Source: Streptococcus cuniculipharyngis
GTDB taxonomy: Bacteria > Bacillota > Bacilli > Lactobacillales > Streptococcaceae
DNA: 64,000 nucleotides
Direction of reading: 5' to 3'
Assembly (NCBI RefSeq): GCF_007859195.1
Contig: NZ_VOHL01000003.1
Coordinates: 1 to 64,000 of the forward strand
The first letter of the stretch is position 1. Each line of letters opens with the position of its first letter. The notes below the pieces were generated by a model that did no database searches, was not told where the DNA came from, and was given only the letters and a program-made list of their open reading frames with translations. The position numbers were made by a program, and so were the translations under genes. This document shows positions 13,438 to 16,051 of this stretch, piece after piece.

Positions 13438-14310
13438 TTATTTTTTCTTTGATACTTTCTTATAGGTTTCCCTACGGTTTTCAATTTCGCTCAATAATTG
13501 CAAATAGTTATCATAACGTTGGTGCCAGATTTCCCCTGTCTCCACTGCCTGTTTAACGGCGCAGGCAGGCTCATGTGTGTGGGTACAGGTTCTAAATTTA
13601 CAGGCCAAACTGACTTGGGCCAATTCTGGAAAGGCCTGATTCAACTCCTCACTAGTCGTCACCTCATAGTCTAGGGCACTAAAACCGGGGGTATCGGCAA
13701 TCAAGCCCTGATTAACGTGGAAGAGACTAACCGCCCGAGTCGTGTGTTTCCCACGCCCCAAACTCTCAGATATCTCTCCCGTTTCTAATTGTAATTCAGG
13801 CGCTAGCTTGTTGAGCAGGGTGGATTTCCCAACCCCTGTCTGCCCCATAAAGACCGTTACTTGATGGGAGAGATGGGGTAATAAATCCTCATAAGATAAG
13901 ATAAACTCATAGCCTATCTGACGGTAGCGTTCAGCAATTTCCCTCATCTCCCCCTGGTCGGTCAAAAGATCTAGCTTGGAAATGTAGACTAGAGGTTTAA
14001 TTTTTTTATAGGCCAAGAGAACCAAAAAACGGTCCAGAAGATTGGCATTAAAATCTGGCTCCTTGGCACTCATCACAACAACTGCCTGGTCAATGTTCAC
14101 AATGGGGGGACGTACTAGCGCATTATGACGTTCCTTGATTGCTAGAATGTAGCCCTCGGAATGTTCTGGAGCCGAAAACTCCACCCAGTCGCCGACATAA
14201 GGGGTTTGCCCCTTTTGACGAAAATTACCACGCGCCCGTGTTTGATACAAGTGTCCTTGATATTCCACATAGTAAAAACCTGCCAAGGCCTTAACAATTC
14301 TTCCTTGCAA
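13438..14310 (-). CDS. rsgA: Ribosome small-subunit-dependent GTPase RsgA
   Basis: 290 aa with a TTG start preceded by AAGGAGAG at 5-nt spacing; family members begin MQGKI, as here ([16 protein letters not shown]). OB-fold (about 1-65), circularly permuted GTPase (G4-like region SKLDLL, then [14 protein letters not shown], then [11 protein letters not shown]), and a C-terminal zinc motif ([14 protein letters not shown]). RsgA checks 30S maturation together with factors such as the KsgA encoded nearby. Confidence 0.96.
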
Positions 14311-14339
14311 CTGCTCTCCTTCTTGTTTTCTTTTTTTCT

Positions 14340-14367
14340 ATTATACCAAAAAAAACAAACTTGTCCT
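14340..14367 (-). promoter_or_regulatory. Promoter of rsgA
   Basis: Extended -10 TGGTATAAT (TATAAT 14345-14340), a T-rich spacer, and AGGACA as a 4/6 match to -35 about 16 nt upstream. Likely start of the rsgA-rpe-thiN-rmuC-yhaM unit. Confidence 0.65.
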
Positions 14368-14416
14368 ATTAGAGAGGAAAACTTTTGACATCGCTTTCTG
14401 AACAGAAGATAGACGC

Positions 14417-14441
14417 AAAAAAAGAGAACCGAAGTTCTCTT
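14417..14441 (-). terminator. Terminator of comS (UUCG tetraloop)
   Basis: Stem AAGAGAAC / GTTCTCTT closed by TTCG, followed on the minus strand by seven T. The hairpin begins at the comS stop codon, so it terminates the comS transcript before rsgA. Confidence 0.92.
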
Positions 14442-14499
14442 AGCCATTAATAATGAGCCACAGTAATAGAAATAGTTGGAGTAACAGTTGTTTTTTCAT
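14440..14499 (-). CDS. comS: ComS: small competence pheromone precursor (predicted)
   Basis: A 19-codon reading frame, MKKQLLLQLFLLLWLIING, directly downstream of comR, in the position comS always holds. It has two lysines and a hydrophobic body like known ComS precursors, which are exported and cut to a C-terminal 7-9 residue pheromone (XIP) that is taken up by Ami/Opp and binds ComR. GAAAGGAT lies 9 nt before the ATG (an adjacent GTG at 14502 is an alternative). The promoter carries a ComR box and a clean terminator follows. The C-terminus has a single Trp and lacks both the Trp-Trp pattern of mutans/pyogenes-type XIPs and the sequence of salivarius-type XIPs. The mature form cannot be fixed from sequence; a heptamer LWLIING-like end is only a guess. 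Confidence 0.85.
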   Translation of the reverse strand: MKKQLLLQLFLLLWLIING

Positions 14500-14533
14500 C
14501 ACGACTATCCTTTCTCTTTGTTATTACATGACT

Positions 14534-14577
14534 ATTGTAATACAAGATTGAAAGAAAGAACAGGACATGGATGTCAC
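14534..14577 (-). promoter_or_regulatory. ComR-controlled comS promoter (ECom box)
   Basis: Perfect inverted repeat GACAT-CC-ATGTC (14575-14564) starting 8 nt after the comR stop, then a T-rich stretch (TGTTCTTTCTTTC) and TACAAT as -10 (14539-14534). This matches the ComR box architecture of streptococcal comS and comX promoters: palindrome, T-tract, -10 about 24 nt away, no -35. Confidence 0.9.
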
Positions 14578-14582
14578 CCTAC

Positions 14583-15485
14583 TTAATCGGTGGCCAAATC
14601 TTTTGCGATTTCCTGAGCTAAATTCGTCAAAAAAACCTGATCGCCAATATCCTGGGCCAACAAAGTAGCCATGTCATAGATTTGTTTGGCCTTCGTCTTA
14701 TCCTTTAGATGATAAACGTAATATTTGGCCCTAAAGACAAGGGTTACTGGTCGATAAACTTGCTGCAAAGTTTGCTGGATAATGTCATCCATCCGGTCAA
14801 CCGCAATGAGCATCCAGTCATAGTCTTGGCTGGCAAGATAGGCCCCGGCAATTGTACTCAGGGCACCCAATAGGCCAACATTGTAGAATTCATGCCCTTG
14901 TATGGCTTGCTTTAGGACCTTATCCAAGCAAACCTTTAGGTTGTGAGGGGGCTTGACGTTCCCTTGACATTGCAAGGCGTAGTATTTTATCAACAGGAGG
15001 TCATTTAAACTATAAACATCCTTGATTAACACTTGACTCAAATAATCAGCAAACAAAAGGTCTGCCATGTCGCCCCGAGGCTCCACTTGCCAGTCCAACA
15101 AGCGTTCAATTAGGTCCAAGGTTAACAGTTCTTCCTCCGGCAAGAGGTCAAAATATGCCTGGTAGATTTCCGCAATGAGTTGGTTTTTTTCAGAAATCCG
15201 CTCAGCATCCCCATAGGAACTGCTCTTGAACAGGAGGTATTTTTTCTCAAAATAACTTTCTGGAATCTGAATATTATTTTCACCCAAGATATCTGTCACC
15301 TGAAGTCCCAGTGTTGCTGCAATATATTCAAGTTTGACTAAGGTTGGTAGGGATTTGCCCTGTTCAATCCTCATCAACTGTCTCACGGTCAACTCCGTTT
15401 CCATCCCACAAAATTGTTCTCGTGTGAGGCCACGGCGTTCCCGCTCTTGACGAATTTTTTGACCTATTAGCCTTTTTTTATCCAT
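14583..15485 (-). CDS. comR: ComR: Rgg/RNPP-type competence regulator
   Basis: 300 aa. N-terminal XRE-type helix-turn-helix (about 5-65: IGQKIRQERERRGLTREQFC, then ELTVRQLMRIEQGKSLPTL), followed by an all-helical TPR-like peptide-binding domain. The pattern of HTH, IPESYFEKK near 75 and LLPEEELLTLDLIERLL near 115 is that of ComR from S. mutans and relatives. Bound by the ComS-derived peptide, ComR activates comS and the sigma factor gene comX (not in this window). GGAGGGGAAGT precedes the ATG. Its promoter lies about 280 nt upstream and overlaps a cre site. Confidence 0.92.
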   Translation of the reverse strand: MDKKRLIGQKIRQERERRGLTREQFCGMETELTVRQLMRIEQGKSLPTLVKLEYIAATLGLQVTDILGENNIQIPESYFEKKYLLFKSSSYGDAERISEKNQLIAEIYQAYFDLLPEEELLTLDLIERLLDWQVEPRGDMADLLFADYLSQVLIKDVYSLNDLLLIKYYALQCQGNVKPPHNLKVCLDKVLKQAIQGHEFYNVGLLGALSTIAGAYLASQDYDWMLIAVDRMDDIIQQTLQQVYRPVTLVFRAKYYVYHLKDKTKAKQIYDMATLLAQDIGDQVFLTNLAQEIAKDLATD

Positions 15486-15538
15486 ACTTCCCCTCCTAAA
15501 TTTATCGATTTCCCAAGATGATAGCTGACATCATGCGT

Positions 15539-15692
15539 CTAGTTCTCAAACACCTCACCTGATGACACGTCACCCCTAACCGTCTTGGGCAAGAAGACTT
15601 TCAACATCATGCGCGCGTTTTCTTTGATTAACTGTAGCATCTTGACCTCGCCTATCATCAACAGACGCTAGGAACACGTCAAGCATTTCCAT
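15539..15692 (-). other. comR leader with two overlapping small reading frames (38 and 39 codons)
   Basis: In the long comR leader the minus strand holds ATG-15692 to TAG-15576 (38 aa, beginning MEMLDVFLASVDDRRGQD) and, in another frame, ATG-15658 to TAG-15539 (39 aa, ending LPKTVRGDVSSGEVFEN). Neither has a convincing ribosome site. They may be chance frames in a structured leader, or traces of an older gene or repeat. A small hairpin AGGCTT-AGC-AAGCCT lies at about 15706-15720. I do not recognise either product. Confidence 0.3.
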
Positions 15693-15765
15693 ACCTACTT
15701 TGTTAAGGCTTGCTAAGCCTCAACAACTATCAACTCATTATCACCAACCTAACTGATTTACTGTC

Positions 15766-15802
15766 ATTATAACATATTTGCATTTTTTGGAAAACGCTAA
15801 CA
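15766..15802 (-). promoter_or_regulatory. comR promoter with overlapping cre site
   Basis: Extended -10 TGTTATAAT (TATAAT 15771-15766), 17-nt spacer, weak -35 TTTTCC (15794-15789). The -35 lies inside TGTTAGCGTTTTCC (15802-15789), which matches the CcpA cre consensus at 13 of 14 positions. Binding there would block RNA polymerase, so carbon-source repression of comR is predicted. Confidence 0.65.
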
Positions 15803-16023
15803 ACTTCGATTCCTTTATTTTTTATCATTAGGGCTTATTAATGTTTGATATTTAAAACAAATAGAGGGGGATTTCTTGATTTTTAAGGATAATATCTGCT
15901 TATCTGTGATTAAGTAGGCTATGGAAGCTTTATTCGTGTCTTAGCAGATGATCAGCCGAATAGACCGGCTGAGTGCTCGCCAACTTTATGACAGGTAAGA
16001 GAAACACTCTAGCGCCAGGACAA
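15803..16023. other. Intergenic stretch without a recognised gene
   Basis: AT-rich region between the comR promoter and the ksgA terminator. The only structure seen is a small hairpin CAGCCG / CGGCTG at about 15953-15971. No reading frame of useful length. Confidence 0.5.
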
Positions 16024-16048
16024 AAGGAAAAAGCCCTTAACAGGGCTT
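16024..16048 (-). terminator. Terminator of ksgA
   Basis: Stem AAGCCC / GGGCTT (16031-16048) followed by TTTTCC on the minus strand, 3 nt after the ksgA stop. Confidence 0.8.
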
Positions 16049-16051
16049 GGT

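Follow-up and report, generated by a model that had tools for sequence, protein, structure and literature searches.

The first 64,000 nucleotides of Streptococcus cuniculipharyngis contig NZ_VOHL01000003.1 (hereafter the window) contain a gene for a ComR-family regulator followed by a very short open reading frame, and this arrangement raises the question of whether the two form a ComRS competence system and, if so, to which class the pheromone belongs. A sequence-only reading of the window had proposed a 19-codon comS 3' of comR, complete with ComR box, T-tract, -10 element, ribosome binding site and terminator, and each of these elements was found at the locus.

All of the elements lie on the minus strand. 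The comR gene (14583-15485) encodes a 300-aa regulator with a helix-turn-helix (HTH) and a ComR_TPR domain. Starting 7 bp past its stop codon is a ComR box that forms a perfect palindrome, GACATCCATGTC (14564-14575), and a T-rich spacer of 24 bp (14540-14563, with the T-rich stretch at 14550-14560) separates the box from TACAAT, the -10 hexamer of the predicted comS promoter (14534-14539). The ribosome binding site AAAGGA (14508-14513) stands 8 nt ahead of the ATG of comS (14440-14499; ATG at 14499, stop at 14440), a small hydrophobic open reading frame of 19 codons, MKKQLLLQLFLLLWLIING, located immediately 3' of comR with promoter elements of its own. An in-frame GTG is present one codon 5' of the ATG, at 14502. 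A predicted intrinsic terminator with an 8-bp stem, a UUCG loop and a T-run (14417-14441) overlaps the comS stop; the hairpin scored -9.3 kcal/mol (z -2.1), and 6 of 200 shuffled sequences were equally good. On this strand, comR-comS is located between rsmA and rsgA. The mature pheromone is predicted to be the final 7-9 residues of ComS, about LLWLIING. The ComRS identity of the locus is well supported, and judging from its sequence it most likely functions as a genuine ComRS.

Pfam PF18710 (ComR_TPR) matched the regulator over the full domain (E 6e-53). In phmmer searches, nearly the whole length of the protein aligned with three solved structures, 6hu8 (3e-57), 5jub (2e-54) and 5fd4 (2e-36), which we take to be the ComRs of S. 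vestibularis, S. thermophilus and S. suis, respectively. The species of these entries are given in part by PMC8605241. The fold predicted from these matches is clear. When the source genome (1.51 Mb in 14 contigs, 99.94% complete; G000 in our locus labels) was searched with the protein, a single full-length ComR was found, together with two further matches confined to the HTH, one of them weak. Two ComR-like HTH proteins that stand alone, without a peptide-binding domain, were also noted: one of 68 aa (L074:7096-7302, minus strand), which is 47% identical to the HTH of the locus ComR and adjoins the peptide operon on contig C14 described below, and one of 74 aa in genome G016 (L020:1489-1713, plus strand). 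These could be competitors for ComR boxes, or remnants.

The nearest named relative is Streptococcus sp. sy004, whose ComR is 72% identical. At the same place it carries a perfect box, 24 bp to a TATAAT, an AAAGGA with equal spacing and a 19-codon open reading frame, MKKLLVLQLVFNIWLLITG, with a hairpin and T-run shortly past the comS stop. The two ComS peptides are equal at 11 of 19 residues, including the Trp and the last Gly. Over 20 codons, the two genes differ 6, 3 and 8 times at the first, second and third codon positions, which would fit a translated frame, small as these numbers are. Another 49 loci went through the comS finder as well (L002-L021 and L034-L062; the sy004 locus appears twice among them, as L021 and L034, and L020 offers only an HTH). 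We consider the finder to work because, as a positive control, it recovered known pheromones of other genomes, namely ...LPYFAGCL of S. thermophilus, ...GNWGTWVEE of S. suis and many DWW forms.

The gap between rsmA and comR measures 566 bp in the window (15486-16051), as against about 165 bp in sy004, and holds a TATAAT about 285 nt 5' of comR. A known RNA in this gap was rejected, with no Rfam match at gathering scores and an unremarkable fold (z -1.09). A cin-box ahead of comR was likewise rejected, the sole site with at most one mismatch sitting 445 bp upstream.

To connect the pair with competence, we turned to the rest of the genome. It holds one sigX, 38% identical (E 1e-30) to a pneumococcal ComX query. 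The sequence-only reading had suggested looking for the same box upstream of comX in the full genome, and a perfect ComR box does lie ahead of sigX (C1:705625-705636), 24 bp from the -10 hexamer TATACT. Perfect boxes number five genome-wide, and in three cases a -10 follows at a distance of exactly 24 bp; these three each precede a gene, namely comS, sigX and a Trp-rich peptide. The box ahead of comS exceeds chance expectation because the three of five perfect boxes that have a -10 at this distance all precede genes. The other two (C1:370040 and C10:41297) were rejected as promoters, as they lie inside open reading frames of 308 and 565 aa, which by our own reading encode a glycosyltransferase and a pepF-like peptidase, and lack a -10 at 24 bp. 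With up to one mismatch allowed, 60 boxes were found genome-wide versus 20 for the reversed control. Among 100 site-orientations (50 of the 60 sites listed), five had a hexamer at 24 bp that agreed with the -10 in 5 or all 6 positions; three of these lie behind the perfect boxes and two behind one-mismatch boxes with GATAAT. The sy004 genome has three perfect boxes, all at 24 bp from a -10, ahead of comS and of two sigX-like genes, judged by eye to be copies of sigX. A fourth perfect box was not found in that genome, and an HTH search there gave ComR alone.

Sites matching the cin-box, TACGAATA, precede comEA, dprA, cinA, ssb and a hydrolase weakly like ScrM. For each of the first four gene products, at least one NCBIfam model scored above its curated cut-off; the ScrM-like hydrolase fell below. 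Of 27 cin-box sites, 9 have an open reading frame close behind, and 5 of these 9 lead to the genes just named. The motif was not enriched genome-wide, with 27 sites versus 64 for the reversed control. The genome also contains comEC and one oligopeptide-binding protein (SBP_bac_5). At the level of sequence, then, the analysis shows the gene pair, a promoter layout that comS and sigX have in common and that recurs in sy004, and late competence genes, several of them with cin-boxes. Two other loci (C1:164394-165420 and C10:16962-18000) each combine an apparent histidine kinase with two LytTR proteins, a small one and a response regulator, in what we take to be a BlpRH/ComDE-like layout. These two regulator-kinase loci could feed into competence.

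The third promoter with a perfect ComR box and 24-bp spacing leads to a 31-aa peptide, MWRFIWTVVRWVIVNAVRHAVWGWVKRWFNW (C14:23587-23737, minus strand; L027, L074), that is rich in Trp (7 residues) and cationic (five Lys/Arg, acidic residues absent) and is followed by ABC transporter genes. The peptide had no Pfam or NCBIfam match, and a literature search by title gave no such family, so a named family was rejected. A DNA search of 284 genomes returned matches in 7 others. In the four best-matching genomes (G260, G250, G225 and G162; L151-L154), two or three tandem peptides are followed by a similar ABC gene; a perfect ComR box was not found just ahead of the tandem peptides in these four, and in L152, the one locus checked with Pfam, they have a ComR_TPR regulator upstream. 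These features suggest, without proof, that the C14 operon is bacteriocin-like and tied to ComR-family control, and the peptide and its relatives possibly form a family of leaderless bacteriocins with ComR-type regulation. There is precedent in the salivaricins of S. salivarius, bacteriocins under ComR-family control (PMC6703854 section 5). Because the third box precedes a Trp-rich peptide and ABC genes, a bacteriocin-like weapon may be deployed together with competence.

We then asked how the pheromone compares with those already described. LLWLIING has a single Trp at position -6 and Gly as its last residue, with four residues between them, and the sy004 peptide, NIWLLITG, likewise has one Trp, at -6, and a last Gly. 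The classes set out in the available part of PMC5131902 are type I without WW (S. thermophilus LPYFAGCL), type II with WW and type III with the split WGxW of S. suis, to which Table 1 of a 2026 review (PMC13361665) adds the S. sobrinus XIP, LMCTIAR/LMCTIVR. Relative to those classes and that table, LLWLIING lacks a P-aromatic-aromatic, WW or WGxW end. No ComR peptide in the table has a single Trp followed by aliphatics and Gly, and MWLLLLFL, a single-Trp peptide listed there, belongs to RopB. The proposal that the pheromone falls outside the Trp-Trp, salivarius and WGxW classes thus holds against the confirmed XIPs tabulated in that review. Literature searches gave no single-Trp or fourth class of ComRS pheromone among the titles listed.

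The receptor pointed in a different direction from the S. thermophilus type. Among the database matches listed (120 of 1641), sy004, sy010, three relatives at 74-79% identity, one at 70%, H31 and S. chenjunshii were followed by proteins of S. salivarius, which at 51-53% identity are the nearest to bear the name of a studied species. Identity to S. thermophilus-type ComRs was 36-39% (36% to L056). In one genome (G208), two such genes flank ATPase and permease genes in what looks like a sarF-sptAB-scuR locus, the layout scuR-sptA-sptB-sarF being that of PMC6703854 section 5, and the pair has Ile in one protein and Met in the other at position 252 of that paper. We infer that the S. salivarius proteins near the locus ComR are ScuR and SarF because of this gene order, the similarity and residue 252.

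We compared the proteins at 14 positions drawn from PMC6703854 and the available part of PMC5131891 (89-92, 100, 171, 172, 174, 208, 248, ScuR 252, 282, 283 and 286), which cover pocket, closing-loop and dimer contacts and were read from the alignment. The locus ComR equals the ScuR-type protein P0025 at 9 of the 14 and the S. thermophilus-type L056 at 4, a result that with so few positions is suggestive only; for comparison, whole-protein identity is 52% to P0025 and 36% to L056. In the alignment, the locus ComR has the ScuR-type pocket features Q172, Q174, G208 and absence of Met at ScuR 252, and its A209, T212, Y245, F252 and N289, neighboring positions of our own choosing, also agree with ScuR-type proteins. 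The positions that differ from ScuR are 89, 90, 171, 248 and 252. At the last of these, where ScuR I252 is said to touch the pheromone Trp (PMC6703854 section 11), the locus ComR has V and sy004 has C, not the Met of SarF. With respect to S. thermophilus ComR, whose residue roles are described in the available part of PMC5131891, R35, R39, K87, Y91, K100, E117, E118, D147 and D283 are kept, and N208->G, Y174->Q, F171->L, R92->G, T90->S and E146->A are replaced. The sequence-only reading had supposed a new pheromone type with its own pocket. This stands only in part: N208, Y174 and F171 are indeed replaced relative to S. thermophilus ComR, but the 9 of 14 match is to the ScuR type, for which a similar synthetic peptide has already been published (PMC6703854).

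In that work, a random 7-codon screen with ScuR produced 22 activating peptides with Trp conserved at -5 and Gly preferred at -1. The prototype, LPFWLILG, could not do without its Trp at 1 nM, and its Gly also mattered; sBK4, a peptide of the screen in which both residues are shifted, was weaker. Further preferences of the screen, for Pro at position -7 and an aromatic residue at -6, are absent from LLWLIING in our comparison. ScuR neither binds nor activates PcomX, and the authors speculated in 2019 (section 11) that the ScuR signal may come from another organism. The native ScuR and SarF peptides are still called unknown in the accessible text of PMC12998947 (March 2026); native peptides are also so described in that of PMC12445099 (2025), in which ScuR is not named. 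Because of the 9 of 14 match and the published ScuR peptide, the locus seems to supply a naturally occurring example of a pheromone type with precedent in, and known only from, artificial peptides.

Phylogenetic analysis placed six window-type proteins together with support of 100/100. In a tree of 38 chosen rows, including 8 proteins from the 120 database matches listed (of 1641), the window type was sister to the ScuR/SarF-like proteins plus two ABC-linked rows (83/89). The alignment was reduced to 54 rows by omitting two translations shorter than 250 aa (L065 and L054), and a 48-row tree, also without six near-duplicate or odd rows (L067, L003, L059, L061, L057b and L047), gave the same ScuR/SarF join at 87/83; neither join was starred. 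Confidence in the join to these putative ScuR/SarF proteins is moderate.

We also surveyed ComS more widely. Among the matches listed from 284 Streptococcus genomes, one was near (G248, with a locus equal to that of sy004) and 13 had a full-length or nearly full-length ComR at 43-52% identity. The ComS survey covered the 14 genomes besides the source with a (nearly) full-length ComR of at least 43% among those matches. A readable single-Trp ComS was present in 5 of the 14 (G248, G113, G065, G256 and G191). That of G065 is not directly behind a perfect box, and that of G256 starts with TTG. G191 (HWFHIFG) has the W-x4-G ending of the window, and G256 (LWLYIVH) also places its Trp at -6 but lacks the Gly; the ComR of G256 sits elsewhere on the tree, away from the window type. 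In G076 (L039, about 2600-2660), an open reading frame of the G113 kind lies behind the second box with TAG in place of the Trp codon of G113. A single origin of the single-Trp ComS was rejected, as the tree needs two changes, with the W1 label there including the interrupted G076; the single-Trp ComS is thus scattered. In the remaining genomes, the comS region of G064 is disrupted, no comS was seen in G055, G167 (two genes) or G163, G067 offers only a TTG-started open reading frame of 25 codons without Trp, and in G209, in G255 and at one of the two genes of G208 an ABC transporter follows the box.

Several other arrangements were noted in passing. In loci L063 (G208), L045 (G209) and L047 (G255), a ComR paralog and a box are followed not by comS but by a gene for an ABC ATPase. 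G113 (L036) and G076 (L039) have tandem perfect ComR boxes, 129 and 118 bp apart, ahead of the comS-like open reading frame. Trp-free ComS candidates occur in L048, L049, L050, L051, L052, L066, L067 and L068, with ends such as ..ATMVLFTF, ..LVMAVR, ..LVMAIY, ..LTVLFR, ..LGIVIH and ..FVYLFY, some of which are reminiscent of S. sobrinus LMCTIAR.

We consider it probable that the locus is a ComRS with a single-Trp, Gly-ended pheromone that would switch on sigX through a receptor on the ScuR/SarF side. ComS would be exported and trimmed, and its C-terminal 7-9 residues re-imported by the oligopeptide importer. The peptide, about LLWLIING, would then bind ComR, its carboxylate pairing with K100 and its Trp entering a pocket lined by helices 10, 12, 14 and 16, comparable to the model of LPFWLILG in ScuR. 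Once bound to its box, the loaded ComR dimer would raise comS in a positive feedback and would also raise sigX, leading to DNA uptake, and the third promoter ahead of the Trp-rich cationic peptide and ABC genes. Several observations count against this reading. ScuR is inactive on PcomX, where the locus ComR would have to act; the Trp is at -6 in the window and sy004 versus -5 in the screen consensus, and the shifted peptide sBK4 was weaker; the aromatic and Pro preferred in the screen are absent; 5 of the 14 named positions differ from ScuR; the join to ScuR/SarF has moderate support; the single-Trp ComS of G256 belongs to a ComR elsewhere on the tree; the two LytTR loci could feed into competence; and the cin-box motif is not enriched genome-wide.

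An ordinary ComRS pair with a drifted pheromone, its likeness to the ScuR screen peptide being a coincidence of short hydrophobic peptides, is in our estimation unlikely, yet it has to be taken seriously. ComS varies widely, relatives have non-Trp forms (..LVMAVR, ..ATMVLFTF, ..FVYLFY), the Trp-Gly spacing is one off from that of LPFWLILG, and the single-Trp ComS needs its two changes on the tree. Drift sits less easily with the presence of Trp and the last Gly among the 11 of 19 residues common to the window and sy004, with G191 likewise ending in W-x4-G, and with a receptor that equals ScuR at 9 of 14 named positions.

That the regulator is instead a ScuR/SarF-like predation regulator, with the Trp-rich peptide operon as its main target and sigX controlled otherwise, appears very improbable. 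The inferred nearest characterized relatives do control bacteriocins and an ABC transporter rather than comX, and a ComR-box promoter does exist ahead of the Trp-rich peptide. However, the regulator is the sole full-length ComR match in its genome, 24-bp boxes stand ahead of sigX here and ahead of both sigX-like genes in sy004, and the latter genome, where the HTH search gave ComR alone, has no fourth perfect box. Least credible of all is that comS is untranslated or a chance open reading frame whose box promoter drives only a short RNA or read-through. Short frames are indeed common, 26 of at least 20 aa overlapping 14300-15700, but start, length, Trp, Gly and ribosome binding site spacing are kept in sy004, both loci have the terminator, and the comS differences favor third codon positions.

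Beyond the preferred reading of a ComRS with a single-Trp, Gly-ended pheromone, a broader scenario is conceivable, though we hold it only tentatively. LLWLIING and its relatives may be a fourth natural class and the ancestral ScuR/SarF signal; S. salivarius would have kept the receptor, lost comS and come to sense foreign W-x(3,4)-G pheromones, making bacteriocins without competence, while in the lineage of the window one receptor would still couple pheromone, sigX and a Trp-rich bacteriocin-like operon. The locus peptide would be a naturally occurring equivalent of the synthetic activators of S. salivarius ScuR, and a natural comS next to a receptor from the ScuR/SarF side narrows the peptides worth trying on ScuR and SarF to a short, concrete list. 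The pair also offers a natural ligand and receptor for asking how Trp-Gly pheromones are told from types I and II, and a candidate pheromone for making transformable a lineage for which we met no competence study in the literature.

Set beside known systems, the locus comes nearest to ScuR/SarF and the synthetic pheromone sBI7 (PMC6703854), with which it shares 51-53% receptor identity, 9 of 14 contact positions and a peptide with one Trp and a C-terminal Gly, the Trp being essential and the Gly favored there. It differs in that ScuR and SarF flank sptAB and have no comS nearby, whereas the locus has rsmA and rsgA as neighbors and a comS; in that ScuR has no action on comX, whereas a ComR box lies ahead of sigX here, where the locus ComR would be expected to act; and in the Trp-Gly spacing, which is three residues in LPFWLILG and four in LLWLIING and NIWLLITG. 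With the type I systems of S. thermophilus, salivarius and vestibularis it has in common the comR-comS order, the box and the T-rich spacer, and its ComR keeps their R35, R39, K87, Y91, K100, E117 and E118; the XIP there is of the P-[YF]-F form (LPYFAGCL, VPFFMIYY), and the pocket residues N208, F171 and Y174 are replaced in the locus ComR. Types II and III (the latter of S. suis) share a comS directly 3' of comR and control of sigX, but the locus peptide has neither WW nor WGxW, and their ComRs are about 27-33% identical and lie across a 100/100 branch of the 48-row tree. The S. sobrinus ComRS, as tabulated in PMC13361665, also departs from the classic aromatic classes, but with an XIP that lacks Trp and ends in a C-terminal Arg. 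The pheromone is thus unlike the published natural ones compared here, and the receptor probably belongs on the ScuR/SarF side of the family.
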